DNA from: Desulfarculaceae bacterium
GTDB taxonomy: Bacteria; Desulfobacterota; Desulfarculia; Desulfarculales; Desulfarculaceae
Assembly: GCA_027067385.1 (NCBI GenBank)
Contig: JAMOVV010000065.1
Coordinates: forward strand, 1-46,359
DNA length: 46,359 bases
Direction: 5' to 3'
Part shown: in pieces, positions 3,599 to 42,423 of the stretch
Position numbering within the stretch: position 1 is the stretch's first letter
How the letters are laid out: every line of letters starts with the position of its first letter
Notes under the pieces: generated by a model
Told to the model about the DNA's origin: nothing
Seen by the model: the letters and a program-made list of their open reading frames with translations, nothing else
Databases searched by the model: none
Position numbers and translations under genes: made by a program

Positions 3599-3644
3599 GG
3601 GGTTTCCAGACCTAGCGATCCTTTGGCTTGAAGGAGGACAAGTA

Positions 3645-6080: not shown

Positions 6081-7175
6081 TCAGCGCACCAGGCGCTCCA
6101 ACACCCGGGCCACCCGTTGCAGGGAGACCAGGTTGTGGCAGGCCAGGAAATGGTCCACGTGGGGCAGGGCTGCGGCCATGCCCCGGTTCAGCGGTTGGTA
6201 GTTGGGGCTCTCCAGCAGGGGGTTTAGCCAGACCAGCCGGCGGGTGCGGCGGTGCAGCCGGGCCATCTCGCGGCCCAGCACCACCGGGTCGCCCCGATCC
6301 CAGCCGTCGCTGAACACCAGCACCACGGTGGAGGGGCCCAGGTAGCCGCCGTGGCGGCGCATAAGGGTGGCCAGGGCCGCACCCAGGCGGGTGCCGCCGG
6401 CCAAGTCGGGCACCAGGCGCGGCAGGGCCTTTAGGAAGCGTCCCACCTCGCCGCGGGCCAGCCAGGGGGTGACCCGGGTGAGGCGGGTGGCAAAGACAAA
6501 GACCTCCACCTGGCGCCAGATGCCGGCCAGGCCGCTTATAAAATGGAACACAAAGGGCGCCGAGAGCTCCATGGAGCCGGAGACGTCGGCCAGGACCACC
6601 AAGCGGCGCTGGCGCTTGGCCCGACGGCGGAACTGCAACTCCACCAGCTCACCGCCGGCGGCCAGGCTGCGGCGCAGGGTGGCCCGCCAGGCCGGGGCTT
6701 GGCGGCCGCCCGGGCGGCGGCGGCGCGACAGGCGCCGGGCCAGGGGCCTGAGCAGCTTGGCCACCTCCGCGGCCATGAGCGCGGCCTGGCCCGGGTCCAG
6801 GCGGTCGAAGCCGGTGCGCCCCAGCACCTCCACCGGCGAGGCCAGGGCCTGGCTCTCAGATGGCGGCGCGGCCTCCTCGGCCGCGGCCGGCAGCAGGCCC
6901 AAGCCCGGCAGGTCCGGGTCCAGGCGATCCAGGGGCGCGGCGGTCGGCTCCTGCTCCGAGGGCCGGTCCAGGAAAAAGCGTTCAAAGAGCCCGGCAAAGG
7001 CCAGGTAGTCCTCGCGGCGGTGCACCAGGGTGGCGCGCAGGGCCCCCATGAGGTCTTGGGGCGAGCCGGGCCCCACCTCGGCCGCGGCCCGCAGGGCGTC
7101 GATGGTCTGGGCGGTGGAGACCACCACCCCGTGTTGGTTCAAAAACCGGGTGAAGCCAACCAGGCGCTCCTGCAC
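6081..7175 (-). CDS. CoxE-like VWA-domain protein
   Basis: A 364-residue protein with a C-terminal von Willebrand A domain. The MIDAS metal site is DVSGSM (197-202) and a second signature, GGTRLGAAL, follows. The N-terminal half is helical and arginine-rich, as in CoxE. CoxE partners the AAA+ ATPase CoxD (compare 2288-3205) in building the active site of Mo hydroxylases such as CO dehydrogenase. The GTG start at 7175 lies 10 bases after the stop of the Mo subunit gene, so this is the last gene of the long minus-strand operon, placed directly behind the enzyme it probably matures. Confidence 0.85.
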   Translation of the reverse strand: MQERLVGFTRFLNQHGVVVSTAQTIDALRAAAEVGPGSPQDLMGALRATLVHRREDYLAFAGLFERFFLDRPSEQEPTAAPLDRLDPDLPGLGLLPAAAEEAAPPSESQALASPVEVLGRTGFDRLDPGQAALMAAEVAKLLRPLARRLSRRRRPGGRQAPAWRATLRRSLAAGGELVELQFRRRAKRQRRLVVLADVSGSMELSAPFVFHFISGLAGIWRQVEVFVFATRLTRVTPWLARGEVGRFLKALPRLVPDLAGGTRLGAALATLMRRHGGYLGPSTVVLVFSDGWDRGDPVVLGREMARLHRRTRRLVWLNPLLESPNYQPLNRGMAAALPHVDHFLACHNLVSLQRVARVLERLVR

Positions 7176-7185
7176 CGGGCACCCC

Positions 7186-9546
7186 CTAGGAGTCCGGGAA
7201 CCTCTCTTTCAAGGCGGCCAACACGTTCTCCGGGGTCATGGGCAGCGAGTCCAGGCGCACCCCGATGGCGTCGTAGATGGCGTTGGCAATGGCCGGGGCC
7301 GAGGGCACGCAGCCCGGCTCGCCCACTCCCTTGGCCCCGTAGGGGCCGGCCGAGTCGAAGGTCTCCACGATGATGGGGGTCACCGGGACCTTGTCCAGGG
7401 CGGTGAGCATCTTGTAGTCCAGGAAGTTGCCGTTGACCATCCGGCCTTCCCGCAGGCGCACCTCTTCGCTCAGGGCATAGCCGCTGCCCATCACCGCCGC
7501 GCCGTAGACTTGGCCCTCCAGCAGCATGGGGTTCATGGAGGCTCCCACGTCGTGGGCCGCAAAGTACTTGAGTATCTCCACGTGGCCGGTCTTGAGGTCC
7601 ACCTCCACCTCCACCCCGGTGGTGCCAAAGGCCCAGGAGCAGGAGAGGTTGCCCTTGAACTCGCGGTCCAGCATCTGGTTGGGCGGATCGTAGAAGACCT
7701 CGGCCATGACCATGGTGCCGCCGGTGGAGAAGTGGGCCTTGCGCAGCAACTTGGCCAGGGGTATGCGGTCGCCGCTGTCGGCCGGGGGCAGGCGCTGGCC
7801 GGGCTCGCGGGGCGCGTCGCGCACGTAGACCACGCTGTCGAACATGTCCAGTTCCTCGGGGTCCCGGTTGAGCTGGCCGGCGGCCAGTTCGAAGACCTTG
7901 CGCCGAATCTCGCGGCCGCAGTGGCAGGCGGCGTTGCCGGCGATGAAGGTCTGCCGGCTGGCGTGGGTGCCCACGTCCCAGGGGCAGATGTCGGTGTCGT
8001 GACTGACGATGTCCACGTCCTCGATGCGCATGCCCACGCTGTCGGCCGCCATCTGGCGCAGCACGGTGTCCACGCCCTGGCCGATCTCCACCGCGCCGGT
8101 GAAGACCTTGAGCTTGCCGAAGTCGTCGAGCTTCATGATCATGCCGTGGCCGTCGGAGCGGTACACCCGGGCCCCGCCGCCCACGTGGATCAACGAGGCC
8201 ACCCCCTGGCCGCGCGCCTTGTAGCCCGTGCTGGTTTCGCCGGCTGCCTTGGCCTTGCGGTGCTGCTGCCAGCCCAGGGAATCGCGCACCTTTTCCAGGC
8301 ACTCGCTCAGGCCGCAGGTGGTGATCTTGAACTTCTGCGGGGTGATCTCGTTGGACTGGTTGGCGTTGAGCAGCCTAAACTCCACCGGGTCGATGCCGGC
8401 TTCCTCGGCCAACTGGTCGATGTTGGACTCCACCGCAAAGGTGGCCTGGGGGTTGCCGTAGCCCCGCATGGCCTGGGAGTAGAGGTTGTTGGTGTAGACG
8501 CTCTCGGCCACAAAGCGCACGTTGGGCACCCGGTACAGGGAGCTGATGGGCACCATCATCACGCTGGGGGTGGTGGCCCCCCAACTGGTGTAGGCCCCGT
8601 TGTCCAGGACCATGTGCACGTCGCGGAAGGTGAGACGTCCCTCGGCGTCGCAGCCTTGGGTGATCTCCATGATGGCCGGCTGCCGGGTGGCCTGGGCCAG
8701 GAACTCCTCCTCCCGGCTGAACTGAATCTTCACCGGCCGGCCGGTGGCGTTGGCCAGCAGGATGGCGATGAACTCGTAGCAGTGGGTATCGAGCTTGGAG
8801 CCGAAGCCGCCGCCGATGGTCTGGCAGCGGATGCGCACCTGGCTGTCTTTCAGGCCCATGGCCTTGAGCGCGGCCAGGTAGTCGTTTTGGGCCAGGTAGG
8901 GAATCTGGGTGATAGAGTACATGGTGAGGTTGCGGTTGAGGTCGAACTCGGCGATGACCCCGCTGGTGCCGAGGCAGCAGTGGTTCACCCAGGTGGTGCG
9001 GTAGCGCCCCTGGGCCACGTAGGCGCTCTTGCCGCGGGCCTGGTCCACGTCGCCGCAGATAAGCCGCCAGGGCAGCTTGAGCTTGTTGGACTTCACCGGC
9101 TTGTTGCGGGCGTCGAGCTCGTGGATCAACGGCGCGCCGTCGGCCAGGGCGTCCTGGGGGGTGAAGACCGCCGGCAGGGGCTCGTACTCCACCTCCACCA
9201 ACTCCAGGGCCTCGGCCGCGATCTCCGGGCTGATGGCCGCCACGGCCACGATCTCGTCGCGGTAGGAGCGCACCTTGCCTTTTTTCAGCGGCCGGTTGTC
9301 GCGCATGAAGCCCAGGGGGATATCCGGGATGTCCTCGCCGGTGAGCACCGCCCGCACCCCGGGCAGCCGGGCGGCCTTGGTGGTGTCGATGTTCTTTATC
9401 CTGGCGTGGGCCTGCTGGGAATAGAGTATCTTGCCATAGAGCATACCGGGGCGCTTGAGGTCGTTGATGTACACGGCGCGGCCGGTGACCTTTTCCCGGG
9501 CGTCACCCCGGGGCAGGCTCTTACCCACGTAGTTTACAGGGCTCAT
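7186..9546 (-). CDS. Molybdenum hydroxylase large (molybdopterin-binding) subunit
   Basis: A 786-residue large subunit of the xanthine dehydrogenase/aldehyde oxidase family. It has the glycine-rich IGGGFGSK stretch, the RGYGNPQATF substrate-pocket segment and, near the C-terminus, GAKGVGEPG, whose Glu is the catalytic base next to molybdenum. It ends after the normal C-terminal domain. The ATG at 9546 overlaps the stop of the 2Fe-2S subunit gene (ATGA), fixing the start within a much longer open frame. With 9543-10019 and 10037-10924 it forms a complete three-subunit enzyme (Fe-S, FAD, Mo). In the proposed pathway it would hydroxylate C2 of the indole ring using water; substrate is inferred from context only. 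Confidence 0.93.
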   Translation of the reverse strand: MSPVNYVGKSLPRGDAREKVTGRAVYINDLKRPGMLYGKILYSQQAHARIKNIDTTKAARLPGVRAVLTGEDIPDIPLGFMRDNRPLKKGKVRSYRDEIVAVAAISPEIAAEALELVEVEYEPLPAVFTPQDALADGAPLIHELDARNKPVKSNKLKLPWRLICGDVDQARGKSAYVAQGRYRTTWVNHCCLGTSGVIAEFDLNRNLTMYSITQIPYLAQNDYLAALKAMGLKDSQVRIRCQTIGGGFGSKLDTHCYEFIAILLANATGRPVKIQFSREEEFLAQATRQPAIMEITQGCDAEGRLTFRDVHMVLDNGAYTSWGATTPSVMMVPISSLYRVPNVRFVAESVYTNNLYSQAMRGYGNPQATFAVESNIDQLAEEAGIDPVEFRLLNANQSNEITPQKFKITTCGLSECLEKVRDSLGWQQHRKAKAAGETSTGYKARGQGVASLIHVGGGARVYRSDGHGMIMKLDDFGKLKVFTGAVEIGQGVDTVLRQMAADSVGMRIEDVDIVSHDTDICPWDVGTHASRQTFIAGNAACHCGREIRRKVFELAAGQLNRDPEELDMFDSVVYVRDAPREPGQRLPPADSGDRIPLAKLLRKAHFSTGGTMVMAEVFYDPPNQMLDREFKGNLSCSWAFGTTGVEVEVDLKTGHVEILKYFAAHDVGASMNPMLLEGQVYGAAVMGSGYALSEEVRLREGRMVNGNFLDYKMLTALDKVPVTPIIVETFDSAGPYGAKGVGEPGCVPSAPAIANAIYDAIGVRLDSLPMTPENVLAALKERFPDS

Positions 9547-10019
9547 GACTTCCTCCCGGCGGCGTGGCTGATGGCCTCCACGATCTGGTGGTAGCCGGTG
9601 CAGCGGCAAAGGTTGCCCGCGATGGCGGTGCGTATCTCCTGCTCGCTGGGGTCGGGGTTCTTGTCCAGCAGGGCCTTGGCGCTGAGCACGTTGCCCGGCG
9701 TGCAAAAGCCGCACTGCACCGCGCCCTTTTCGATAAACGACTCCTGGATGGGATGCAAGGTGCCGTCGGGCTGGGCCAGGCCCTCGATGGTGGTGACGCT
9801 GCGCCCCTCGGCCTCCATGGCCGGGTAGAGGCAGGAGGTCACGGCCCGGCCGTCGATGATCACGGTGCAGGCCCCGCACTCCCCGGCGCCGCAGCTTTCC
9901 TTGACCCCGTAGAGGTCGAACTGGTCGCGCAGTACACTGAGCAACAGGTCCCCGCCGTCCACTTCGGCGGTGACTTGCTGTCCGTTCAACTCGAATTCAA
10001 TCATGCGTTTCATGGTCAC
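9543..10019 (-). CDS. Molybdenum hydroxylase 2Fe-2S subunit
   Basis: A 158-residue small subunit with both 2Fe-2S centres. The plant-ferredoxin-type cluster uses C43, C48, C51 and C63 (CGAGECGAC pattern); the second uses C103, C106, C138 and C140 (QCGFCTPG and CRCTG). It passes electrons from the Mo centre to the FAD subunit. Length and cysteine pattern are canonical. It lies 17 bases after the FAD subunit gene and overlaps the Mo subunit gene by 4 bases, giving the order FAD, Fe-S, Mo on the transcript. Confidence 0.93.
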   Translation of the reverse strand: MTMKRMIEFELNGQQVTAEVDGGDLLLSVLRDQFDLYGVKESCGAGECGACTVIIDGRAVTSCLYPAMEAEGRSVTTIEGLAQPDGTLHPIQESFIEKGAVQCGFCTPGNVLSAKALLDKNPDPSEQEIRTAIAGNLCRCTGYHQIVEAISHAAGRKS

Positions 10020-10036
10020 TTCCTCTTGTCAACGCC

Positions 10037-10924
10037 TCAAACGGCGATACCCATGCGCTCTAAGGCCAAGGCGGCCGCCCGCGGGATGAGCACCCGCAGC
10101 ATCTCCTCGCGGTACCAGGCCGAACAGCGGTCGCTGTCGCGCAGCCGGCACTCGCGCCCGATGGCCCGGATGGCCACCTGTTCCTTGGTGGCCTCGGCCA
10201 CCGGCGCGCCCACCAATTCCTCCTCGGTCTGCTTGAGACGCACCGGGGTGGGCGCCGCCACCCCAGCGGCCAGGCGGGCCTTGGCGATGGTGGCCCGGTC
10301 GGGGTTCACCCAGAGCTGCACCGCCACGTTGATCAGGGCCAGGTCCATGGCCGCCCGGCGGGTGAGCTTGAAAAAAGCGCCGGAGCTGATCGCCCCACCG
10401 GCGGCGGGCAGGGGAATCTCCAACCCGGCCAGCAGCTCGTCGGGCTCGGCCGCGGTGGTGCGGGGCCCCACGAACATCTCGTCCATGGGCACCCGCCGCT
10501 CGCCGCCGGGGGAGACCAGGCGGCACACGGCGTCCAGGCACAGCAGGGGGCCCAGGGTGTCGCCGCTGCTGGCCGCGGTCATGACATTGCCCCCCACGGT
10601 GGCCATGTTGCGCATCTGGGTGGAGCCCATCACCTGCACCGCGTCGTGCAGGATGGGCAGCTCGCGGGCCACCTCGCCGTTTTCCAGGATGTCGGTGAGC
10701 GTGGTGGCCGGGCCCAGGTGCAAGACATCGTCCTGGAGGCTGATGCCGGCCAGCTCGGGGATGCGGCGCAGGCTGATCAAGGCCCGGCAGTCGAGCTTCT
10801 TTTCCCGCGCCAACACCAACACGTCGGTGCCGCCGGCGATGTAGCAGGCCTCCCGGCCCATCTCCTGCTTTACCCGCAGGGCCTGGTCAATAGTCGTTGG
10901 TTTGAAATACTCGATGTTCTTCAT
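10037..10924 (-). CDS. Molybdenum hydroxylase FAD subunit
   Basis: A 295-residue FAD-binding subunit of the xanthine dehydrogenase family (CoxM type). The FAD sites AGGTDVL (about 31-37) and ATVGGNVMTA (about 108-117) are intact. Unlike the HcrB-like protein at 27916-28926 it has no extra four-cysteine insertion, so the two Mo enzymes of this window belong to different subfamilies. It follows the TRAP permease gene by 52 bases in the same orientation, so uptake and first oxidation are co-transcribed. Confidence 0.92.
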   Translation of the reverse strand: MKNIEYFKPTTIDQALRVKQEMGREACYIAGGTDVLVLAREKKLDCRALISLRRIPELAGISLQDDVLHLGPATTLTDILENGEVARELPILHDAVQVMGSTQMRNMATVGGNVMTAASSGDTLGPLLCLDAVCRLVSPGGERRVPMDEMFVGPRTTAAEPDELLAGLEIPLPAAGGAISSGAFFKLTRRAAMDLALINVAVQLWVNPDRATIAKARLAAGVAAPTPVRLKQTEEELVGAPVAEATKEQVAIRAIGRECRLRDSDRCSAWYREEMLRVLIPRAAALALERMGIAV

Positions 10925-10976
10925 TTGCTTCCACCAGTACGGTTTCGTCTATCGCGGCCCACTGGCCACCGCCGGC

Positions 10977-12281
10977 CTAGGGCATGAGGTTGGGCAGGAA
11001 GGTGACCACCCCCGGAAAAATCATCAGCAGCAAAACACAGATGATATAGGCCGGCAAGAAGTAGAGGACCCCCTTGAAGACGTCTTGCAGGGGTACGTCC
11101 TTGGCCATGCCGGCCACCACGTAGGTGGTGGCCCCCACCGGCGGGGTCACCGCGCCCAGGGTGGCCACCACGGTTATCACCACCCCGAACCACAGCGGAT
11201 CGTAGCCCAGCTTGGCGGCCACCGGGAAAAAGATGGGTATGGTGATCAGCAGCAGGGCCAAGGCGTCCATCACCGCCCCACCGATGATAAAGATCAGGAA
11301 AATGATCGAGAGAATCACGTAACCGGGTACCGGCAGGCCGGCCACCCAGTCGGCCACCTCAAAGGGGATGCGGGTCACCGCCAAAAAGCGCCCGAAGATC
11401 ACCGCGCCGGCCACGATGACGATGACCATGCAGGAGATGCGGATGGTCTCCAGGATCGAGGCGATGAGCCCCTTCCAGGACAGCCGGCCCTGCACCGCCG
11501 AAAGAGCCACCGCCAGTCCCGACCCGGCCGCGCCGGCCTCGGTGGGGCTGAAGATGCCGAAGTAGAGTCCCAACATCACCAGGGCGAACAACAGCACCAT
11601 GTCGATGGCCCCGGGCAGCGAACGGAACTTCTCGCCCCAGGTGGTCTTGGGCCCCACCGGCCCCCAGGAGGGATGCCGCAGGCACATGGCGTAAACCGTC
11701 AGGGCCAGCAGAACGGCCAGGATCACCCCGGCGCTGATGCCGCCGTAGAACAGCTTGGCGATGTCCTGGCCGGTGTACAAGCCGATGACGATGAGCACCA
11801 CGCTGGGCGGGATAACCACCCCCAGGGTGGAGCCGCAGGCGATGGCCCCGGTGCTGAGCATCGGCTCGTAGTGAAATTTTTTCATCTCCGGCAGGGCCAC
11901 GGTGGTCATGGTGGCCGCGGTGGCCGCGTTGGAGCCGCAGATGGCCGCAAAGGCCGCGCAGGCCATCACCGTGGCCATGGCCACCCCGCCCTTGAACTGT
12001 CCCACCCACTTGTGGGCGGTGCGGTAGAGCTTTTCATTCACCCCGGAGTGGAAGGCGATCTGCCCCATGAAGATGAACAGGGGGATCACCGTGAGGCCAT
12101 ACTTGGAAAAGGTCATCCACAGGTCGGTGCTGAGCATGCCCAGCCCGGCGGTGATATTGACCACGTAGCAAAAGCCGATGAAGCCCACGATGGCCATGGC
12201 AAAGCCCACCGGCATACCCAGGAGAAACAACACGCCCATCAGGGCGACGATACCGGTGACTCCCACCGAGGTAGGGCTCAT
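10977..12281 (-). CDS. dctM: TRAP transporter large permease (DctM)
   Basis: A 434-residue, very hydrophobic inner-membrane protein with about 12-13 membrane segments, matching the DctM family in length and in motifs such as GAVTPPVGATTY near the C-terminus. It imports an organic acid using the ion gradient, together with DctQ and the periplasmic DctP. Its start overlaps the dctQ stop by 4 bases. The TRAP system is embedded between the reductive-dehalogenase-like gene and the Mo hydroxylase, so its substrate is very likely the compound degraded by this operon. Confidence 0.93.
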   Translation of the reverse strand: MSPTSVGVTGIVALMGVLFLLGMPVGFAMAIVGFIGFCYVVNITAGLGMLSTDLWMTFSKYGLTVIPLFIFMGQIAFHSGVNEKLYRTAHKWVGQFKGGVAMATVMACAAFAAICGSNAATAATMTTVALPEMKKFHYEPMLSTGAIACGSTLGVVIPPSVVLIVIGLYTGQDIAKLFYGGISAGVILAVLLALTVYAMCLRHPSWGPVGPKTTWGEKFRSLPGAIDMVLLFALVMLGLYFGIFSPTEAGAAGSGLAVALSAVQGRLSWKGLIASILETIRISCMVIVIVAGAVIFGRFLAVTRIPFEVADWVAGLPVPGYVILSIIFLIFIIGGAVMDALALLLITIPIFFPVAAKLGYDPLWFGVVITVVATLGAVTPPVGATTYVVAGMAKDVPLQDVFKGVLYFLPAYIICVLLLMIFPGVVTFLPNLMP

Positions 12282-12772
12282 TGGTCGTCCTCCTGTGGTT
12301 TAGGGAAAAACAGGCGCAGAATCTCGGTCAGGAAAACCAAGGCCAAAACGGCGCAGCCCAGGGCGGTGGCGTAGGTAAAGGGATAAAAGGGTATCTGCAG
12401 GGTCTCGGTGAGCTCTCCCTCCTCCACCAGCACGTTGGACCACATCACGATCTGCCAGGCGGCCAGCCCGAAGAAGGTCATGCAGAAAAGGCCATTGATA
12501 ATGGTCAGCACCCGCCGGGTCCGGCTGGCGAAGCGGTCCACCAGGATGTCCACCGCGATGTGCATGCGATGCGCCTGGGTATAGGCCAGGGCAAAGGAAG
12601 CGGCCACCGCCCCGAACATGCCCAGCAGCTCAAAGGTCCCCCGAATGGGCAACCACACCAAGCGCAACAAGATATTGGCGCAGGTCAACAGCACCATGGC
12701 CGCCAAGGACAACCCCGCCACAAAGGCCAGGACTTTGGTGCAATACCGGGTTAGGGTCTCCAGAAAAGACAT
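12278..12772 (-). CDS. dctQ: TRAP transporter small permease (DctQ)
   Basis: A 164-residue membrane protein with four predicted membrane helices, the usual size for DctQ. The central RMHIAVDILVDR segment is the typical DctQ signature. It bridges DctP docking to DctM. A GC-rich intercistronic region of 145 bases separates it from dctP upstream, whereas dctM overlaps it downstream, so the two membrane subunits are coupled to each other but not to dctP. Confidence 0.92.
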   Translation of the reverse strand: MSFLETLTRYCTKVLAFVAGLSLAAMVLLTCANILLRLVWLPIRGTFELLGMFGAVAASFALAYTQAHRMHIAVDILVDRFASRTRRVLTIINGLFCMTFFGLAAWQIVMWSNVLVEEGELTETLQIPFYPFTYATALGCAVLALVFLTEILRLFFPKPQEDDQ

Positions 12773-12809
12773 ACCTCTCCTCTTTGGCCAAGCGGCGGCC
12801 CGGCCTTAA

Positions 12810-12884
12810 GCGCACACCCGGCGCGGGTGCGCCGCGCCCCGGGGCGCAATAACCGGTTGGGCTGCGGCCGGCCGGGACGGCCGG
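12810..12884 (-). promoter_or_regulatory. Intercistronic hairpins between dctP and dctQ
   Basis: Two strong stem-loops lie in the gap: CCGGCCG (12868-12874) with CGGCCGG (12878-12884) over a 3-base loop, and GCGCACACCC (12810-12819) with GGGTGCGC (12825-12832) with two bulged bases. No T run follows on either strand, so they are not typical terminators. Such hairpins after a binding-protein gene commonly stabilise its mRNA and lower expression of the permease genes; that role here is inference. Confidence 0.5.
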
Positions 12885-12917
12885 GGGAGACCGCCCCCCC
12901 GGCCGCCCGGCTATGCC

Positions 12918-13943: not shown

Positions 13944-13983
13944 TTCTCTTCCTCCCTTAAAGAAAGTAGGTTCCTACCGTATC

Positions 13984-15189: not shown

Positions 15190-15228
15190 GGCAATACTTG
15201 TCCCCCGCCCTCGCAACGGACCCTGGGA

Positions 15229-16515: not shown

Positions 16516-16550
16516 GGTCTGGTCGCTCCCTGAAAAATATCCGGTTGGTC

Positions 16551-20395: not shown

Positions 20396-20492
20396 CTTGG
20401 CTTTCCTCGGCTCCGCCCCGGGCGAACCCGCAGCGGGGCAATCTGTTTAGCGGACCTGGCAGGGGGCCCGCCGGCCAGGGGTGAACAATCTA

Positions 20493-22130
20493 TTAGAAGA
20501 TGGAGGGCTCCTCCATCTCGCCATGGACCTGGCGCAGCACCCCGGCCATCTCGCCCACGGAGCAATAGGCCCCGCAACACTCCACCAGGGCGGGCATGAC
20601 GTTTTGGCCGGCCCGGGCCGCCTTTTCCAGCTCCAGCAGCCGCTGTTTCACCTCGCGGTCCGAGCGCGCGGCCCGCACCTCCTTGAGCGAGGCGATCTGC
20701 TTGTCAGCGGTGGCCATGTCGTACTCGTGCAGCTCCACGTCGGCCTCTTCGCCCTGCTCCACGTACTTGTTCACCCCCACCTTGACCCGGGTGCCCTCCT
20801 GCAGCTCGCGTTCCCACTCGTAGGCCTGGCGGGCCACCAGGCGCTGCACCTGGCCGCTCTCCACCGCGGCCACGATGCCGCCCCAGGTCTCCACCCGCTC
20901 CATCTCCTGCAGGATCTTCTCCTCCATCTCCTTGGTGAGGGTCTCCACGAAATAGGAGCCGGCCAGGGGGTCCACGGTGTCGCGCAGGCCGATCTCCTCC
21001 ATGAGGATATTGCAGGTGCGCAGGCTGATGAGCGCCGACTGCTCGGTGGGGATGGTGTAGGCCTCGTCGTAGGAGCACAGGGCGGTGGTCTGGGCCCCGC
21101 CCAGGGCGGCGGCCAGGCCGTAGTAGGCCCCGCGCACGATGTTGTTCAGGGGCTGGGCCTTGGTGAGCCCAAAGCCGCCGCCGCCGAACAGGCCGCGCAG
21201 GAACAGGATCTTCTTTTCCTGGATGTCATAGCGCCGGCGCAGCAGCTTGGCCCAGAGCTTGCGGGCCGCCCGGAACTTGGCCACCTGCTCCCAGAGATTG
21301 CCGAAGATGTTGAAGTTGAAGCTGAAGCGACCGGCCACCTGCTCCGGCCGGTAGCCCCGGGCCACCACGTTGTCGATGTAGGCAAAGGCGATGGCAAAGG
21401 CGAAGCCGATCTCCTGGGCCGGGGTGGCGCCGGATTCCCGGATGTGATAACCGCAGACGCTCACCGGGTTGCAGCGGGGCAGCTTGCCCTGGGCGGTGGC
21501 GTACTCGATGACGTCGCAGGTGAGGTCCACCGCCGGCCGCACCGGGAATATCCAGGCCCCGCGGCCGATGATCTCCTTGAGGATGTCGTTTTGGGGGGTA
21601 GCGCTGATCTTGGCCGGATCGATGCCCCGGCGCCGGGCCAGGGCCTCGTACATGGCCAGCATGATGCAGGCCACCGCGTTGATGGTGAGTCCGCTGCCGA
21701 TGCTGGTGAGGTCGATGCCCTCGAAGGCCACCTCGAAGTCGGCCAGGGTGTCCACCGCCATGCCCACTCGGCCCACCTCGCCGAAGGCCATCTCGTCGTC
21801 GGAGTCGTAGCCCATCTGAGTGGGCAGGTCAAAGGCCACGTTGAGCCCGGTCTGGCCGTTGGCGATGAGCAGCTTCCAGCGCTGGTTGGTCTCGGCCGGG
21901 GTGCCGAAGCCGGAGTACTGCCGGGTGGTCCAGGCCCGCGAGCGGTAGCCCTGGGGATGCAGCGAACGGGTGAAGGGGAACTCGCCGGGATCGCCGAGGT
22001 CCTGTTGGTAATCAAAACCCACCCGCTCCAGGTCCTCGGGGCCGTAGAAGGGTTTCACGTGGATGCCGCTGGCCAGCTCCACGTCTTCGATGGCGTCCTT
22101 GTGGTTCTTGATGTACTTGGCCACGCCCAT
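20493..22130 (-). CDS. B12-dependent acyl-CoA mutase, catalytic subunit
   Basis: A 545-residue stand-alone catalytic subunit of the methylmalonyl-CoA mutase superfamily; the cobalamin domain is separate (22134-22559). Aligned by eye with the P. shermanii enzyme, Y72 corresponds to Tyr89, R65 to Arg82, Q180 to Gln197, R190 to Arg207 and H229 to His244, so the residues that hold a carboxylated acyl-CoA are kept. The markers of 2-hydroxyisobutyryl-CoA mutase (Ile90, Asp117) are absent. Pocket positions Tyr75 and Met78 are His58 and Gly61 here, which suggests a bulkier acyl group than methylmalonyl. Arylsuccinyl-CoA to arylmethylmalonyl-CoA rearrangement is my inferred reaction. Confidence 0.9.
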   Translation of the reverse strand: MGVAKYIKNHKDAIEDVELASGIHVKPFYGPEDLERVGFDYQQDLGDPGEFPFTRSLHPQGYRSRAWTTRQYSGFGTPAETNQRWKLLIANGQTGLNVAFDLPTQMGYDSDDEMAFGEVGRVGMAVDTLADFEVAFEGIDLTSIGSGLTINAVACIMLAMYEALARRRGIDPAKISATPQNDILKEIIGRGAWIFPVRPAVDLTCDVIEYATAQGKLPRCNPVSVCGYHIRESGATPAQEIGFAFAIAFAYIDNVVARGYRPEQVAGRFSFNFNIFGNLWEQVAKFRAARKLWAKLLRRRYDIQEKKILFLRGLFGGGGFGLTKAQPLNNIVRGAYYGLAAALGGAQTTALCSYDEAYTIPTEQSALISLRTCNILMEEIGLRDTVDPLAGSYFVETLTKEMEEKILQEMERVETWGGIVAAVESGQVQRLVARQAYEWERELQEGTRVKVGVNKYVEQGEEADVELHEYDMATADKQIASLKEVRAARSDREVKQRLLELEKAARAGQNVMPALVECCGAYCSVGEMAGVLRQVHGEMEEPSIF

Positions 22131-22133
22131 GGC

Positions 22134-22559
22134 TCAGGCCCCTCTCTTGCGGGCCACCGCCTGGCGGGTGCCCTCGATGAACTGCTCGAAACCGGTGCCG
22201 CCGGGGAAAACCCCGTCGACCCCCATGGCCTTCAGCGGCTCGATATCCCGGTTGGGGATCACCCCGCCCACCACCACGGCCACGTCTTCCATGCCTTTCT
22301 CCCGCATCAGTCCCAGCAGCTTTTGGCAGATGGGCAGGTGGGCCCCGCTCATTATGGACAACCCGATGACGTCCACCGCCTCTTGCATGGCGGTGGCCAC
22401 GATCTTTTCCACGCTCTGGTGCAACCCGGAGTAGACCACCTCCATGCCCGCGTCGCGCAGGGCATGGGCCACGACCTTCACTCCCCGGTCGTGGCCGTCC
22501 AGGCCGGGTTTGGCCATCAGTATGCGGATGGGCCGCGGGTTGCTATGGCTCGCCGACAT
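22134..22559 (-). CDS. B12-binding subunit of acyl-CoA mutase
   Basis: A 141-residue cobalamin-binding domain equivalent to the C-terminal part of methylmalonyl-CoA mutase. The base-off signature DGHDRG spans residues 21-26, with H23 as the lower cobalt ligand, followed by the SIMSGAH and GGVIPN segments. It binds adenosylcobalamin and pairs with the catalytic subunit whose ATG lies 3 bases downstream. Separate mutase subunits are common in anaerobes. It follows the GntR gene by 3 bases. Confidence 0.93.
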   Translation of the reverse strand: MSASHSNPRPIRILMAKPGLDGHDRGVKVVAHALRDAGMEVVYSGLHQSVEKIVATAMQEAVDVIGLSIMSGAHLPICQKLLGLMREKGMEDVAVVVGGVIPNRDIEPLKAMGVDGVFPGGTGFEQFIEGTRQAVARKRGA

Positions 22560-22562
22560 GTT

Positions 22563-23240
22563 TCACAACTCCAACTCTCCCTTGGCTATGCGTTCCATCA
22601 TCCAACGGCCGCCGCGCCGCAAGTGGTCGCGGCACCTGCGCCGCGCCTGGTCCGGGTCGCCCTTTTTCAGGGCGGCCAACAATTTGCGATGGTCACCCAA
22701 AGAACGCGCCGCCGCCTCCAGGTCTCCCAGCAGGGCCCGGCGAAACCGGAAGAGCACGTCGCGCAGGTTGCTGATCAGCTCGAACAACATGTCCGAGCCC
22801 GCCGCCTGGTACAGGGTGTCGTGGAACACGGTGTTGAGATCCACCAGCCGGCGGCGATCCCCGCGCTGCAGGGCCTTTTCAAACTGGGCCACGTTCTTTT
22901 CCAGCTTGGCCAACTGGGCCGCTGATATCTTGCTGGCGGCCAACTCGGCGGCATAGGATTCCAGCACCTCGCGCAGGCCCACCGCCTCCTGCACTTCCTT
23001 TTGGCTAAGCGGCCGCACCTGGTAGCCGCCCTGGGGCCGCTTTTGCAAAAGCCGCTCGTGCTCCAGGCGCACCATGGCCTCGCGCACCGGGGTGCGGCTG
23101 GTGCCCATGCGCTTGGCCAGCTCCACCTCGTAGAGCCGCTCGCCCGGGGGCAGCTCCCCGCGCACGATCATCTCCTTGAGCATACGAGTGGCCTCGGTGC
23201 TCAAGGACAGGCGCGCGATGGCGGGGGTGTTGCCGGCCAC
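22563..23240 (-). CDS. GntR-family regulator with FCD domain
   Basis: A 225-residue transcription factor. Residues about 10-78 form the GntR winged helix (LAKRMGTSRTPVREAMVRLE). The C-terminal FCD domain keeps its three histidines (NTVFHDTLY, DHRKLL, CRDHLRRG) that usually hold a metal and sense a small carboxylate or acyl-CoA. The GTG start at 23240 lies 7 bases after the dehydrogenase stop codon, with TAGGAA as ribosome site. Its likely operator is the 11-bp-arm palindrome at 27788-27813, whose core TTGTATGCAA resembles known FCD-type GntR operators. A GntR regulator also belongs to the Azoarcus indoleacetate cluster. Confidence 0.92.
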   Translation of the reverse strand: MAGNTPAIARLSLSTEATRMLKEMIVRGELPPGERLYEVELAKRMGTSRTPVREAMVRLEHERLLQKRPQGGYQVRPLSQKEVQEAVGLREVLESYAAELAASKISAAQLAKLEKNVAQFEKALQRGDRRRLVDLNTVFHDTLYQAAGSDMLFELISNLRDVLFRFRRALLGDLEAAARSLGDHRKLLAALKKGDPDQARRRCRDHLRRGGRWMMERIAKGELEL

Positions 23241-23249
23241 TTCTAGTTC

Positions 23250-24395
23250 CTAAAACCGCATGGCGCGGGCGATGTTTTGGCGCAGTACCTCGTGGGTGCC
23301 ACCACCGTAGAGCAAAAAGCGCGCGTCGCGGAAGAAGCGCTGCACCGGGTACTCCATGGAATAGGCGTAGGCCCCCAGGATGCGGGTGGCTTGGTCCACG
23401 CAGCGGCAGGCCACCTCGGTGGCGAAGTACTTGGCCATCATGGATTCCTTGTCCACCCGCTGGCCCTGGTCCAGCTTGCGGGTGGTGTCATAGATCATCA
23501 GCTCGGCCGCCCAGATGTCGGTGGCCATGTCCGATATCTTGGCCTGGATGAGCTGGTACTTGCTGATGGTCTTGCCAAAGGCCTTGCGCTCCTGGGCGTA
23601 CTGGAACGAGGCGTCAAAGGCGGCCCGGGCCACCCCCAGGGCCAGGGCGGCGGTCATGGTGCGTATCTCGGCCAGGATGGCGAAGAAGGCGCCCATGCCC
23701 TTGCCGGGCAGGCCCACCAGGTAGTCCTTGGGTATGCGGCAGTCGTTGAAGGCCACCTCCGATATCTCGGTGGTGCGGGTGCCCAGGGTGTCAAAGCGCG
23801 GGCTCACCTGCACCCCCGGGGTGTCGCGGGGCACAAAGAAAAAGTTCAGTCCCCTAATGCCCTTGCCCGGCTGGGTCTGGCACAGCACCGTGAAGTAGCT
23901 GGCAATGGGCGCGTTAGTGATCCAGGTCTTCATGCCGCTGATGATCCAGTGGTCGCCATCGTCCACCGCGGTGGTGGTCACCGACCCCAGGTCGCCGCCG
24001 GCCTCGGGCTCGGTGAGGCAAAACGACCCCACCATCTCGCCGCGCATGGAGGGCTCCAGGTACTTTTCTTTTAGCTCGGGCGAGCCGAAACGGTAGAGAA
24101 AGTTGGTGCCCATGAGGCACTGCTTGGCCGTCTCGGCCGCCAGGCTCACCAGGCCGCGGGCCAGTTCCTCGCAGATGATGCAGTAGAGGGTGGCGTTGCC
24201 GGTGGCGCCTTTTTTCATGCCCAGGTAACGAACGTTGAAGACGTTCATGGAGGCCAGCTTCTTGAAAAGCTCCTGGGGGAACTCGCCGCGCTCGTCGATC
24301 TCCCGGGCCCGGGGGGTGACTTCCTGGTCCACGAAACGGGCCATCACCTGGCGCAGCAGCTTCTCGGGGTCGGACCTGATCGCAGGGTTGGTCAT
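23250..24395 (-). CDS. Acyl-CoA dehydrogenase with altered catalytic position
   Basis: A 381-residue flavoprotein of the acyl-CoA dehydrogenase family, with the FCLTEPEAGGD flavin-binding segment (125-135), KTWITNA (156-162) and the QERKAFGK helix. The usual catalytic Glu lies in a Y-E-G-T motif; here the motif is YGGGTHEV (363-370), so that Glu is Gly364. The alternative base used by isovaleryl-CoA and long-chain enzymes would align with I244, but E243 is adjacent and could serve. It sits beside EtfAB, its probable electron acceptor. In the proposed pathway it would oxidise, and perhaps decarboxylate, an arylmethylmalonyl-CoA. Confidence 0.92.
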   Translation of the reverse strand: MTNPAIRSDPEKLLRQVMARFVDQEVTPRAREIDERGEFPQELFKKLASMNVFNVRYLGMKKGATGNATLYCIICEELARGLVSLAAETAKQCLMGTNFLYRFGSPELKEKYLEPSMRGEMVGSFCLTEPEAGGDLGSVTTTAVDDGDHWIISGMKTWITNAPIASYFTVLCQTQPGKGIRGLNFFFVPRDTPGVQVSPRFDTLGTRTTEISEVAFNDCRIPKDYLVGLPGKGMGAFFAILAEIRTMTAALALGVARAAFDASFQYAQERKAFGKTISKYQLIQAKISDMATDIWAAELMIYDTTRKLDQGQRVDKESMMAKYFATEVACRCVDQATRILGAYAYSMEYPVQRFFRDARFLLYGGGTHEVLRQNIARAMRF

Positions 24396-24398
24396 TTT

Positions 24399-25580
24399 CT
24401 ATACCTCGGCCAAGGCCTGGCGCAAGGCCGGCACCAGGCTGAACAGATCGCCCACCAGGGCGTAATCGGCCACGCTGAAGATGGCCGCCTGGGGATCGCG
24501 GTTGACCGCCACCAGGTAGCGGGCCCCGGCCACGCCGGCCCGATGCTGGATGGCCCCGCTGATGCCAAAGGCCAGGTACAGCTCCGGCCGTACCGACTGG
24601 CCGGTCTGGCCTATCTGGCGGTCGGCGGTGATCCAGCCCTCTTCCACCGCCACCCGGGTGCCGCCCAGCTCGGCCCCCAGGTCGTCGGCCAGGGCGCGCA
24701 GCAGCTCGAAGCCCTCGGCCCCGCAGCCCCGGCCGCCGGCCACGATGACCTTGGCCTGGGTGAGGTCCACCGCCTCTTGCCGGCGCTCCTTGAACGACAC
24801 CAGCTTGACCAGCAGGTCCTCGGCGCCCAGGCTCACCGGGTGGCGCAGCAGCTCGGCGCGCGCCCCCGCCTGCCGGGGCAAGGGAGCCATCACCCCAGGG
24901 CGCACGGTGGCCATCTGGGGCCGCACCCGGGGAGTGACGATGGTGGCCATGACGTTGCCGCCAAAGGCCGGCCGGGTCTGGCGCAGCCCCTGGTTCTCGG
25001 GGTCGATGGACAGCTCGGTGCAGTCGGCGGTGAGACCCAGGTCCAGGCGGCCGCTCACCCGGGGGGCCAGGTCGCGGCCCAGGGGGGTGGCCCCGATGAG
25101 CAGCACCGCCGGCTGGTGGGCGGTGATCAGCTCGCCCAGGACCTTGGTGTAGCCCAGGGTGGAATAGTCCGCCAGTTGCTCGTGCTCGGCCAGGTACACC
25201 CGGGCGGCCCCGGCCTCGGCCAGCTCGCCGGCCAGGTGCTCCACCTGGTGGCCCAAGAGCACCGCGGCCAACTCCTGGCCCAGGGCCTGGGCCAGGCGGG
25301 AGCCCTCGCCCAGGAGCTCGCGGGTCACTTGGGCCAGGCGGCCCTGGTGATGCTCGGCCAACACCCATACCCCGCGGTACATGGAGAGGTCGGGGATGGG
25401 CTGCTCCTGGATGTCGGATGCCATCGCCTCGAACTTGCAGGCGGCCACGCAGGCACCGCAGTTGGTGCAGCGGTCGTTGATGGCCGCCAGCTTGTCTTCG
25501 ATATCAATGGCGCCGTAGGGGCAGGCCTTGGCGCACAGGCCGCAGCCGGTGCAGTTTTCCTCGATAACCCAAACCGGCAT
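24399..25580 (-). CDS. etfA: EtfA with N-terminal two-cluster ferredoxin domain
   Basis: A 393-residue electron transfer flavoprotein alpha subunit carrying an extra N-terminal ferredoxin domain: C10, C13, C16, C20 and C38, C41, C44, C48 form two 4Fe-4S sites. The ETF part follows, with the C-terminal FAD domain around GQTGQSVRPELYLAFG. This architecture is known from CarE of the caffeyl-CoA reductase complex and related anaerobic ETFs. The ATG at 25580 overlaps the etfB stop (ATGA), which fixes the start against longer frames. It probably receives electrons from the dehydrogenase at 23250-24395. Confidence 0.95.
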   Translation of the reverse strand: MPVWVIEENCTGCGLCAKACPYGAIDIEDKLAAINDRCTNCGACVAACKFEAMASDIQEQPIPDLSMYRGVWVLAEHHQGRLAQVTRELLGEGSRLAQALGQELAAVLLGHQVEHLAGELAEAGAARVYLAEHEQLADYSTLGYTKVLGELITAHQPAVLLIGATPLGRDLAPRVSGRLDLGLTADCTELSIDPENQGLRQTRPAFGGNVMATIVTPRVRPQMATVRPGVMAPLPRQAGARAELLRHPVSLGAEDLLVKLVSFKERRQEAVDLTQAKVIVAGGRGCGAEGFELLRALADDLGAELGGTRVAVEEGWITADRQIGQTGQSVRPELYLAFGISGAIQHRAGVAGARYLVAVNRDPQAAIFSVADYALVGDLFSLVPALRQALAEV

Positions 25581-26377
25581 CAGAGCACCTTCTTTTCGCG
25601 CAGGTCGGCCACCAGGGCGGCGGCCTGCTCGGCCGGCGTGCCCTCCAGCCACCGGGTTTCTCGTTTGGTCTTGGGGCTAAAGGTCTCCACCACCTGGGTG
25701 AGGGAGCCGCGCAGGCCGGTCTTGTCGGCCGGGGCCCCGATGTCGGCGGCGTTCCAGGACTCCAGGGGCGCCCGGGGCCGGCAGGCCTCCAGCAGGCGCT
25801 CCACCCGCGGCCAGCGCGGCTCGCCCGGGGTGTCGAGCACGGTCACCACCGCGGGCAAGGGACACAGCACCTCCTGGTCCCCGTCGGGCAAGCGCCGCCA
25901 GGCCCGCAACTGGTCGCCTTCGGACCGCACCTGGCCCACGTAGGTCACCTGGGGCCAGCCCAGGTGCTCGGCCAACTGGGGGCCGATCTGGGCGGTGTCG
26001 CCGTCTATGGCCTGGCGGCCGCAGATCACCAGGTCCACCGGCTCCTCGGCCGCCAGGCGCTCCACCACCTTGCCCAGGGTGTAGCTGGTGGCCCAGGTGT
26101 CGGCCCCGGCGAAGTTGATGTCGGTGAGCAGCACCCCGCGGTCGGCCCCCATGGCGTAGGCCTCGCTGAGCACGTCCACCGCCTGGGGCGGTCCCATGGA
26201 CACCGCGATCACCTCGCCGCCGGCCGCGTCCTTGAGCGACAAGGCCGTCTCCAGGCCCAGGCGGTCGTCGGGGTTCATCACGCTGGCCACGCCCTCGCGG
26301 ATCAAGGTGCCGGTCTTGGGATCAATGCGCACCTCGGTGGTGTCGGGCACCTGTTTGACCATTACTACTATTCTCAT
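25580..26377 (-). CDS. etfB: EtfB, bifurcating-type
   Basis: A 265-residue electron transfer flavoprotein beta subunit. It starts with the standard MRIVVMVKQVPDT. At residues 122-133 it reads QAIDGDTAQIGP, the version seen in electron-bifurcating or confurcating ETFs, rather than AIDDDCNQTG of the mitochondrial type. That, with the ferredoxin domain on EtfA, suggests a link to ferredoxin or NADH. It follows the CoA-transferase gene by 102 bases with no visible promoter. Confidence 0.94.
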   Translation of the reverse strand: MRIVVMVKQVPDTTEVRIDPKTGTLIREGVASVMNPDDRLGLETALSLKDAAGGEVIAVSMGPPQAVDVLSEAYAMGADRGVLLTDINFAGADTWATSYTLGKVVERLAAEEPVDLVICGRQAIDGDTAQIGPQLAEHLGWPQVTYVGQVRSEGDQLRAWRRLPDGDQEVLCPLPAVVTVLDTPGEPRWPRVERLLEACRPRAPLESWNAADIGAPADKTGLRGSLTQVVETFSPKTKRETRWLEGTPAEQAAALVADLREKKVL

Positions 26378-26479
26378 GCCTAGGCTCCAGGCGTTGGCGG
26401 CGGTCCCGTACTACGCGGCCGGTGGCTCCCGCCATTCGGCAAGCCATCCCCGGCCGCCGGGCAAAAACCGCAACCGGCT

Positions 26480-27667
26480 TTAGATCACGCCGTCGTTCTT
26501 GAGAGTTTGCAATTCCTCCGGGCTCACGCCGAGGCCCTGGTAAATCTCCTGGTTGTGCTCGCCAAAGCGCGGCGGGAAGCTGAGGGTGTTGTTATTGGCC
26601 TGCAGGAAGGGGGTGGGGTGCGGCGGCGGCGCCAGGGTGATGGTGAGGCCGCTTTGGGGGTCGGTGGCCTTTAGCAGGTTGGGTTTCACCAGGGGATCGG
26701 CGATCACCTCGGGGATGGTCTGTATCTTGGAGATGGGCAGGCGGATGGCGTTGAACTTGGCGATAAGCTCGGCGGTGTCCATCTGCCGAGTAATCTCGGC
26801 GATGGCCTGGTTGAGCTGGTCCACCGCCTTGATGCGTCCCAGGTTCTTGGCATACTCGGGCCGGTCCAAGGACTGGAACTCGGGTATCTCCACCATGGCC
26901 TTGAACTGGCGGTCGTTGCCCACCGCGATGTAGACGTAGCTGTCCTTGGTGGGGAACACGCTCACCGGCGCGAAGAACTGGTGGGTGTTGCCGCGCCGGG
27001 TGATTTCCTCGCCAAAGGTGTCGGTGAGGGTGATGGGCACCGTGAGCCAACTCACGGTGGAGGCGAACATGGACAGCTCCACGGTGGAGCCCTCGCCGGT
27101 GCGCTCGCGGCGGTAGAGGGCCTTCATCAGCAGGCAGTAGGCGTGCTCGCTGGTGCCCATGTCCGGCAGGGGGATGCCCACCACCTGGGGTTCGCCGTCC
27201 TGCTCGCCGGTGAGCTCCATCAGCCCGCCGCGGGCCTGCAGGATGGGGTCGTAGGCCGCTTCGTCCACGTCCGGGCCAAAGCCGGTGACCCCCAGCCAGA
27301 TGAGGTCCGGCTTGATGGCCCGCAGGGTGTCGGGGGCGATGCCCAGCTTGTCGTAGCTGCGCGGGAGCTGGTTGGTGGCAAAGATGTCCACGTCCAACTC
27401 CAGGATGAGCTTCTTGAGCAGTTCCTGGCCGCGGGGGTCGCCCAGGTTGAGGGTGAGCGCCTTCTTGCCGGAGTTGATGCACAGGAAGTAGCGGTTCATG
27501 CGCTCTTCGCCGGGCAGGGGCTCGCCCACCATGCGGTTGGGGTCGCCGTAGACCGGGTGCTCCAGGCGTATGACCCGGGCCCCGTCCTGGGCCAGGCGGT
27601 AGGTGAGGTAGGGCAGGACCGTGGCCTGCTCCAGGCTAAGTACGGTCAGGTCGGAAAAGAGCTCCAT
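26480..27667 (-). CDS. Family III (CaiB/BaiF) CoA-transferase
   Basis: A 395-residue class III CoA-transferase. The catalytic Asp is probably that of LPDMGTSEHAY (about residue 170), followed by the family segment RRERTGEGSTVELSMF. It moves CoA from one thioester to a free acid. It is the first gene of the long minus-strand operon, 150 bases from its predicted promoter. Phenylsuccinyl-CoA transferase of the indoleacetate pathway belongs to this family, so a (2-aminophenyl)succinate-type acceptor is possible, but specificity cannot be read from sequence. Confidence 0.92.
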   Translation of the reverse strand: MELFSDLTVLSLEQATVLPYLTYRLAQDGARVIRLEHPVYGDPNRMVGEPLPGEERMNRYFLCINSGKKALTLNLGDPRGQELLKKLILELDVDIFATNQLPRSYDKLGIAPDTLRAIKPDLIWLGVTGFGPDVDEAAYDPILQARGGLMELTGEQDGEPQVVGIPLPDMGTSEHAYCLLMKALYRRERTGEGSTVELSMFASTVSWLTVPITLTDTFGEEITRRGNTHQFFAPVSVFPTKDSYVYIAVGNDRQFKAMVEIPEFQSLDRPEYAKNLGRIKAVDQLNQAIAEITRQMDTAELIAKFNAIRLPISKIQTIPEVIADPLVKPNLLKATDPQSGLTITLAPPPHPTPFLQANNNTLSFPPRFGEHNQEIYQGLGVSPEELQTLKNDGVI

Positions 27668-27846: not shown

Positions 27847-27915
27847 CCCCTTTGATGCCTCTCTCCCCGCCCGGTCGCCCAAAAGGCGTTGGGCGGGTTA
27901 CAGCAGGAGGACTTT

Positions 27916-42419: not shown

Positions 42420-42423
42420 AGCC

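Follow-up and report, generated by a model that had tools for sequence, protein, structure and literature searches.

A stretch of 46,359 nucleotides from a Desulfarculaceae bacterium (contig JAMOVV010000065.1, referred to at its full length as the window) carries 18 tightly packed genes on its minus strand, from position 6081 to 27667, and we consider it probable that this cluster encodes the anaerobic breakdown of indoleacetate, with a divergently transcribed module as an extension. The intergenic gaps do not exceed ~150 bases, and open reading frame (ORF) calls and family profile scans agree with the number of genes and with the families that an earlier interpretation made from the letters alone (the sequence-only reading) had listed. 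The contig (C65) belongs to a draft genome of 3.17 Mb in 206 contigs that is 86% complete.

In the proposed pathway, a TRAP transporter would take up indoleacetate, a PaaK-like ligase would form its coenzyme A (CoA) ester, and the core molybdenum (Mo) hydroxylase would convert the ring to its 2-oxo (oxindole) form, the lactam of which HyuAB would open using ATP. A class III CoA-transferase would then shift the CoA, the B12-dependent mutase would turn (2-aminophenyl)succinyl-CoA into (2-aminobenzyl)malonyl-CoA, and IaaF would oxidise and decarboxylate the latter to 2-aminocinnamoyl-CoA, passing its electrons to the operon's own ferredoxin-domain electron transfer flavoprotein (ETF). From 2-aminocinnamoyl-CoA the published scheme continues by β-oxidation (PMC8360864), the product of which we infer to be 2-aminobenzoyl-CoA. 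Two steps extend that scheme: an epimerase would hand IaaF the right enantiomer, and a Mo enzyme of the 4-hydroxybenzoyl-CoA reductase (4-HBCR) type, supplied with low-potential electrons through an extra [4Fe-4S] cluster, would remove the amino group from 2-aminobenzoyl-CoA to give benzoyl-CoA.

Markers of the indoleacetate pathway

The indoleacetate (iaa) pathway of Aromatoleum aromaticum employs the CoA ligase IaaB, the CoA-transferase IaaL, the mutase IaaGH and the dehydrogenase IaaF; this last enzyme catalyses the oxidative decarboxylation of benzylmalonyl-CoA and is told apart in sequence by GGG in place of YEG (PMC8360864). A hydantoinase-like ring opening is ascribed to IaaCE in PMC8453981. 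The window dehydrogenase carries the IaaF marker, GGG being present as RDARFLLYGGGTHE, and LYGGGTHE is found in it and in all eight aligned dehydrogenases of other operons, an alignment that left out a ninth, more distant operon dehydrogenase (G172, AGG). A contig profile scan with this alignment yielded at least 80 loci; where the GGG column was checked, the motif was present in 12/12 named loci (L072-L083) and in 0/9 contrast loci of the same scan (L084-L091 and L136). Three of the loci (L077, L078 and L079) hold tandem IaaF-like dehydrogenases in one cluster, with LYGGGTHE and LFGGGTSE. Among named records, those with the closest relatives of IaaF (L072-L083) are mostly metagenome-assembled genomes titled Deltaproteobacteria, Desulfobacteraceae, Syntrophobacterales or Syntrophaceae, which lends indirect support to the 'Desulfobacterota-like' origin suggested by the sequence-only reading.

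The mutase residues Tyr89, Ala116, Gln197, Arg207 and His244 are kept in 40/40 non-outgroup rows of the alignment, which include L089 (a Bacteroidetes mutase with no iaa operon) and L083/G784, one place entered twice. We take these positions, in numbering and role, to be those of methylmalonyl-CoA-mutase-type enzymes. The assignment of the window mutase to this type, and not to the hydroxyisobutyryl-CoA-mutase type, is thereby supported and would fit a carboxylated substrate; since 4/5 outgroup mutases share the residues, they fix the substrate class and not the iaa pathway. In a tree built by a quick method with no bootstrap, from which G784 was dropped and in which only 7 rows lie outside the operon mutases, the mutases of 37 operons with either of the two HyuAB types described below form one branch (SH-aLRT 100).

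The search for relatives covered 297 genomes of the phylum, among them that of the window itself. HyuB of the window type (type 1, at least 60% identity) was found in 25 of them, in a search that took the best four candidates per genome at E 1e-60, which makes presences lower bounds and absences weak. The steadiest block is mutS-mutL-hyuA-hyuB, whose members occur together in the phylum stretches at 52-69%, 64-80%, 64-77% and 74-86% identity, respectively, and because the block recurs in other genomes of the phylum, its arrangement is not due to chance. It is often joined by the CoA-transferase, the GGG dehydrogenase, the ETF, the PaaK-like ligase and the core Mo hydroxylase; the TRAP genes, the GntR regulator and RdhA vary between operons. 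Of the type-1 stretches, 22 extend 7 kb or more behind hyuB; by hand count 14 of these contain the core Mo gene, which was not seen in those of G005, G279, G103, G042, G086, G012, G458 and G858.

Two further groups hold hyuB, iaaF, mutS and mutL, one comprising G735, G736 and G738 (reached via L136) and the other G1143, G1068, G858, G889, G1142 and G1117 (via L084). Their nine stretches contain hyuA in eight cases, the CoA-transferase in seven and Mo-hydroxylase genes in seven. In G735, an 841-amino-acid protein encoded between the CoA-transferase and the Mo genes matches indolepyruvate:ferredoxin oxidoreductase (IOR; TIGR03336, 363 bits, below the cut-off of 651) and ends in a subunit-beta domain; the Mo genes are followed by one for a class I/II aminotransferase, and hyuA is preceded by a BcrC-like gene. 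G736 has look-alike ORFs at the same positions, judged by their first residues. The G735 set reads as a route from tryptophan via indolepyruvate to indoleacetyl-CoA that would feed the same pathway, and its operon is the best context evidence for an indole substrate. Together with the GGG motif of IaaF and the mutase residues, it backs the indoleacetate assignment made in the sequence-only reading. A candidate gene can be named for every step of the published pathway, those for HyuAB, the PaaK-like ligase, the class III CoA-transferase and the Mo hydroxylase by family match.

A divergent molybdenum enzyme and epimerase-like module

The sequence-only reading had confined the unit to 6081-27667, where the 18 genes indeed lie; the functional unit probably goes on past 27667, with the divergent module at 27889-32148 belonging to the operon. 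For this module we advance a tentative proposal, held with somewhat less than even confidence: moF2-moS2-moL2 would serve strict anaerobes as their 2-aminobenzoyl-CoA reductase (deaminating), releasing ammonia and giving benzoyl-CoA, the neighbouring protein would be a dedicated (2-aminobenzyl)malonyl-CoA epimerase, and both would be part of one indoleacetate-to-benzoyl-CoA pathway with exchangeable HyuAB.

moL2 is closest to 4-hydroxybenzoyl-CoA reductase (PDB 1rm6_A, 470 bits), and moF2, when aligned with 1rm6_B, shows the four cysteines that ligate the 4-HBCR cluster, their numbering being assumed here. The motif is present in 18/20 loci, the other two having no moF2 match with the four-Cys motif in the stretch, and the core FAD subunits compared are without the insert. 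At the column of HcrA Tyr326, presumably an active-site residue, all 38 aligned moL2 rows (33 distinct genes, five of them entered twice) have Val (33) or Ile (5). Because both subunits stay below the equivalog cut-offs and Tyr326 is replaced, moFSL2 is a sister family of 4-HBCR.

The moL2 clade is sharply separated, with 46/297 phylum genomes at 50% identity or more and no other listed row above 43%; the best three candidates per genome were scored, so that here, too, counts of presence are minima and an absence carries little weight. In 15/46 genomes the clade member is no more than 30 kb away from a HyuB gene, compared with 2/104 of the paralogues listed (Fisher P=2.6e-7, taking genomes as independent and leaving kinship uncorrected), and a HyuB match of any type occurs in 42/46 moL2 genomes. 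Operons of both HyuAB types are linked to the module, which in G112 and G216 sits between the CoA-transferase and mutS.

In the window, the gene for the epimerase-like protein (145 amino acids) shares 4 bases with moL2, and it is found within ~2.6 kb of moL2 in 12/20 loci; among the remaining eight, three stretches (G021, G210 and G293) stop within moL2 or on reaching it, and five run on. In G988 it adjoins IaaF. Judged by the NCBIfam equivalog cut-off, its product appears to be a relative of methylmalonyl-CoA epimerase and not that enzyme itself. We propose the epimerase role because IaaF takes one enantiomer and methylmalonyl-CoA epimerase works on benzylmalonyl-CoA, the R. sphaeroides enzyme having been assayed by deuterium exchange and by its restart of the IaaF reaction (PMC8360864). 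As to the reductase, a three-subunit Mo enzyme with the low-potential cluster of 4-HBCR is suited to stripping an aromatic CoA ester reductively of its ortho-amino group. Reductive deamination of 2-aminobenzoyl-CoA was reportedly described by Lochmeyer in 1992. For the deamination of 4-aminobenzoyl-CoA in Desulfatiglans anilini, a 4-HBCR-like protein has been suggested as the putative enzyme in the available part of PMC7500099. Among the papers listed in literature searches, no title or displayed abstract connects iaa operons with a 4-HBCR-type enzyme or with a gene for an epimerase; such genes may be mentioned in Schuhle 2016.

Two other functions of the Mo enzyme have to be weighed. It is unlikely that the module removes a ring hydroxyl, with hydroxylated indoleacetates as substrate besides or instead of plain indoleacetate. 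Its closest solved relative is a dehydroxylase, and Mo enzymes reported from urolithin-producing gut bacteria (PMC12771579) point in the same direction; however, Val or Ile in place of HcrA Tyr326 makes the site unlike that of the known dehydroxylase, and the CoA esters of the published pathway already have an amino group, which renders an extra ring substituent needless. Equally improbable is an oxidative hydroxylase, for instance the true indoleacetyl-CoA C2-hydroxylase, that delivers electrons to ferredoxin via the extra cluster. The relative of moL2 acts on a CoA ester, the gene is linked to the operon, and the core Mo enzyme is missing from view in 8/22 of the type-1 stretches counted above; against this, the core moL is shared across groups, including G735, G736, G1143, G1068 and G889, with no moL2 in the stretch seen.

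A probably accessory RdhA and the exchange of HyuAB types

The RdhA-like protein passes its family cut-off, contains two Fe-S motifs and, aligned to PceA, keeps Tyr246, Asn272 and Arg305, which we take to be dehalogenase active-site residues; no Tat motif was seen in its N-terminus, read by eye. Its gene has the DctP and PaaK-like genes as neighbours. The same-family genomes G172 and G089 hold most of the operon and no rdh in the operon stretch (that of G089 also has no TRAP and no PaaK-like gene), for which reason RdhA was rejected as a core part of the operon. The closest relatives (53-56%), in G012, G086 and G050, are on contigs other than that of hyuB, and in G050, G012, G086 and G279 the stretch seen around the closest rdh shows no operon enzymes. 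More distant rdh genes lie ~3-5 kb from core Mo genes in G021, G176 and G223. Thus, while the family match behind the RdhA listed as a difference by the sequence-only reading holds, the gene looks accessory, perhaps serving halogenated indoles. That it marks a halogenated indoleacetate (4-chloroindoleacetate, bromoindoles), dehalogenated in the cell, as the substrate of the operon is distinctly unlikely. In favour are the passed cut-off, the conserved PceA residues, the proximity of rdh to core Mo genes in the three genomes just named and the presence of type-1 HyuB in 9/15 genomes with Rdh matches of at least 217 bits (hand count); against it stand the two same-family operons, the location on other contigs in four genomes and the fact that a single family (f14) supplies five of the nine.

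The models closest to the window HyuA and HyuB are those of caprolactamase, matched at 739 and 414 bits, below the 1000-bit cut-offs. The HyuA translation keeps the ATP motifs DVGGTFTD, DMGGT and SAPGP, comparable to the motifs in the available part of PMC8453981, where a metal-binding His of the small subunit (CapB His99) is called conserved. The window HyuB has the metal site Asp-Gln-Asp-His, as opposed to Asp-His-Asp-His of the CapAB/HyuAB lactamases. In the alignment, the His99 column is Gln in 34/34 type-1 HyuB rows (at least 50% identity and 85% coverage) and His in 11/11 rows of a second type. Type-2 HyuAB, at ~35% (HyuA) and ~30% (HyuB) identity to those of the window, stands in operons that share with type 1 the mutase (65-70%), the GGG dehydrogenase, the CoA-transferase, the ligase and the core Mo enzyme, and in the mutase tree type-2 operons are nested inside type 1, requiring at least two changes of HyuAB type. 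The most doubtful alternative, an operon for another lactam or heteroaryl-acetate with a caprolactamase- or hydantoinase-like HyuAB, can point to the nearest models and to HyuAB types that swap while the remaining operon stays, and is opposed by the missed cut-offs, by a GGG motif and mutase residues that fit arylmalonyl/arylsuccinyl chemistry, and by the IOR-like partner in G735.

Further HyuAB variants were observed. L083 (G784, C22) has a third kind, 36 and 31% identical to type 1 and 40 and 34% to type 2, together with a GGG dehydrogenase and a 47% mutase. A second HyuB (53-54%, Gln type) adjoins a PaaK-like ligase in G021 (L048, 5038-9780), G176 (L068) and G223 (L069), with an Rdh-like gene near it in G021 and G223 and, by eye, ABC-transporter-like ORFs in G021. 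Plasmid searches with the HyuB, IaaF-like and mutase proteins gave best places all below 60% identity; the HyuAB of an Azoarcus KH32C plasmid and of a Corynebacterium plasmid are set among unrelated genes.

Several observations weigh against the assignment of the cluster and its module to indoleacetate breakdown. The likeness to the iaa operons of Aromatoleum EbN1 and Azoarcus evansii would appear from published descriptions and not from direct protein comparison: in searches aimed at EbN1, the forward primer was found in 0/123 genomes of the order of G458 and the primers were not found in 27 loci or in 11 further ones, and no Aromatoleum- or Azoarcus-titled record was among the at least 80 loci of the IaaF scan, a scan filled by general dehydrogenases. 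The PaaK-like, IOR-like, epimerase-like and 4-HBCR-like proteins all score below NCBIfam equivalog cut-offs, and no benzoyl-CoA reductase above such a cut-off was found among the scanned candidates of the window's own, incomplete genome. GGG dehydrogenases occur with an ETF and without mutase, HyuAB and CoA-transferase in L082 (21 kb) and G941 (L211, L203 and L212, 54 kb), either through use outside iaa operons or because the operons are split, and G1151 has one with a mutase and no HyuAB in the stretch; GGG alone is therefore no proof of operon function. Type-1 HyuB is without the conserved caprolactamase metal His. As for the module, moL2 occurs in four genomes without a HyuB match, was not found among the best three candidates of 7/25 type-1 HyuB genomes, six of them at least 90% complete, and is not accompanied by an epimerase in G232, G102, G245, G266 and G177, the stretches of which continue past moL2.

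Gene inventory, surroundings and known systems

The features are compiled in Table 1. The core Mo large subunit probably starts near 9546 and not at the opening of its ORF at 9879, because of the overlap with the small-subunit gene (9543-10019); EtfA probably has its true start near 25580. Control of both divergent transcripts by the operon's GntR protein would fit the palindrome at 27788-27813, between the CoA-transferase and moF2, and its half-site spacing, GTATN5ATAC, occurs again upstream of the CoA-transferase in 5/16 other stretches (G172, L077, L078, L079 and G058), a count with no shuffle control.

Table 1. Positions of the operon, its divergent module and the flanking maturation genes in the window.
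Feature	Position	Strand	Evidence
CoxD/MadB-like AAA ATPase (maturation)	2288..3325	-	NF047784 264 bits, below cut-off 475
MocA-like Mo-cofactor nucleotidyltransferase	5350..6033	+	PF12804; TIGR03310 100.7 bits, below cut-off 186
CoxE-like VWA protein (Mo-hydroxylase maturation)	6081..7175	-	VWA_CoxE, PF05762 182 bits
Mo hydroxylase large subunit, core (moL); proposed indoleacetyl C2 hydroxylase	7186..9546	-	PF02738/PF20256/PF01315
Mo hydroxylase [2Fe-2S] subunit	9543..10019	-	PF01799/PF00111
Mo hydroxylase FAD subunit, without 4Fe-4S insert	10037..10924	-	PF00941/PF03450; motif comparison
TRAP transporter DctM	10977..12281	-	PF06808 294 bits
TRAP transporter DctQ	12278..12772	-	PF04290
TRAP solute-binding DctP	12918..13943	-	PF03480
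RdhA-like corrinoid/Fe-S protein, accessory	13984..15216	-	TIGR02486 254 bits, cut-off 160
PaaK-like CoA ligase (IaaB-like)	15229..16554	-	PF14535/PF00501; TIGR02155 379 bits, below cut-off 646
HyuB type 1 (lactam opening), Gln at CapB His99	16551..18293	-	PF02538 494 bits
HyuA type 1 (ATP-binding)	18293..20395	-	PF01968/PF05378/PF19278; motifs DVGGTFTD, DMGGT, PGP
B12-dependent arylsuccinyl-CoA mutase large subunit (mutL, IaaGH-like)	20493..22130	-	PF01642 582 bits; residues; tree
Mutase B12-binding small subunit (mutS)	22134..22559	-	PF02310, TIGR00640
GntR/FCD regulator	22563..23240	-	PF00392/PF07729
IaaF-type decarboxylating acyl-CoA dehydrogenase	23250..24395	-	PF00441; GGG motif compared with PMC8360864
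EtfA with two N-terminal 4Fe-4S motifs	24399..25652	-	PF01012/PF00766/PF00037
EtfB	25580..26377	-	PF01012
Class III CoA-transferase (IaaL-like)	26480..27667	-	PF02515 263 bits
Near-perfect 26-bp palindrome (12/13 pairs), divergent promoter region; candidate GntR operator	27788..27813		
moF2, 4-HBCR-type FAD subunit with four-Cys [4Fe-4S] insert	27889..28926	+	TIGR03195 195 bits, below cut-off 405; 1rm6_B alignment
moS2, [2Fe-2S] subunit ORF, start probably near 28930	28653..29423	+	PF01799/PF00111
moL2, 4-HBCR-type Mo subunit, start probably near 29420	29348..31714	+	TIGR03194 648 bits, below cut-off 995
Methylmalonyl-CoA-epimerase-like protein	31711..32148	+	TIGR03081 92.8 bits, below cut-off 114.95

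Beside the operon, 3597-5018 (plus strand) encodes a TrpB-like pyridoxal phosphate enzyme that exceeds the TrpB2 cut-off (NF009057, 721 bits, cut-off 366) and has homologues (59-65%) in the stretches of G244, G223, G232, G045 and G1143. Past the module, 32167-39914 (minus) holds genes for two AMP-forming CoA ligases, a CBS-domain protein and a CitMHS/DASS-type transporter, and homologues of ligase 1 (60-68%) lie near operons in G172, G285 and G103. A YqeC-domain ORF at 34148-35500 (plus; PF19842), possibly for a Mo-enzyme accessory factor, has homologues (38-40%) adjoining the iaa/Rdh region in G021, G223 and G176. Two HGD-D proteins and one activator ATPase are encoded at 40017-43212 (plus); a benzoyl-CoA reductase was rejected for this set, which scores higher as a 2-hydroxyacyl-CoA dehydratase (HadBC plus activase) and has a single activator, and its products are perhaps an aromatic 2-hydroxyacyl-CoA dehydratase. 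The long minus-strand ORF at 39930-42242 was dismissed as most likely an antisense artefact, having no family match and lying where the HGD-D genes occupy the plus strand. At the left edge, 155-1654 (plus) combines AAA_12 and MTES_1575 nuclease-like domains and is possibly a defence or mobile-element gene; at the right end, 44018-45987 (plus) encodes fumarase alpha and beta and an SdhC-like protein, ordinary central metabolism.

Among known systems, the iaa operon of Aromatoleum aromaticum EbN1 and Azoarcus evansii (PMC8360864 and the available part of PMC8453981) comprises the same set of reactions, with IaaB, IaaCE, IaaL, IaaGH and the GGG of IaaF; compared by description, the window adds the TRAP transporter, the Fe-S ETF, the GntR regulator, RdhA and the divergent module. 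The ferredoxin-linked ETF that the sequence-only reading had counted among the differences is present but not new: a non-bifurcating ETF is also part of the iaa operons predicted for Desulfatiglans anilini, for other sulfate reducers and for Ferroglobus (PMC8360864, citing Schuhle 2016), and like the window these strict anaerobes have iaaF and ETF in one operon. How IaaF is re-oxidised without oxygen is left open for the denitrifying host in PMC8360864, which reports IaaF as enantiospecific and, for sulfate reducers, puts forward a dedicated ETF; the locus offers a ferredoxin-domain ETF as candidate re-oxidant and, as a possible source of the enantiomer that IaaF accepts, an epimerase.

moFSL2 resembles 4-hydroxybenzoyl-CoA reductase (HcrABC/HbaBCD, PDB 1rm6) as a three-subunit Mo enzyme with an extra [4Fe-4S] insert in the FAD subunit, and differs from it in scoring below both equivalog cut-offs, in Val or Ile at Tyr326 and in its linkage to iaa-type operons. 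The putative 4-aminobenzoyl-CoA reductase of the D. anilini ani cluster (PMC7500099, in the part available) is likewise encoded by a 4-HBCR-like gene with a proposed reductive deamination; this likeness to moL2 is one of description, and the ani enzyme differs in its para-amino substrate and its aniline pathway. With a 4-HBCR-type enzyme tied to a pathway of 2-amino-carrying CoA esters, there is a specific candidate, open to cloning, for the ortho aminobenzoyl-CoA deaminase. With caprolactamase CapAB (PDB 6yra; PMC8453981, in the part available) the window HyuAB shares the HyuA/HyuB pair for ATP-dependent lactam opening and the ATP motifs, whereas the metal ligand His99 is replaced by Gln; in the exchange of HyuAB types, Gln for His, nature offers two ways of opening the ring for comparison within operons that are otherwise nearly alike. 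The window RdhA matches the reductive dehalogenase PceA (PDB 4uqu) in sequence family, in the Tyr/Asn/Arg active-site residues and in two 4Fe-4S motifs, and differs in showing no Tat motif by eye and in its place within a catabolic operon. Taken together, the window is a further member of the iaa operons with variations of its own, a kind of system already known; its reading as an indoleacetate operon is well supported and ordinary in kind, and the specialist interest lies in the module and in the exchange of HyuAB.

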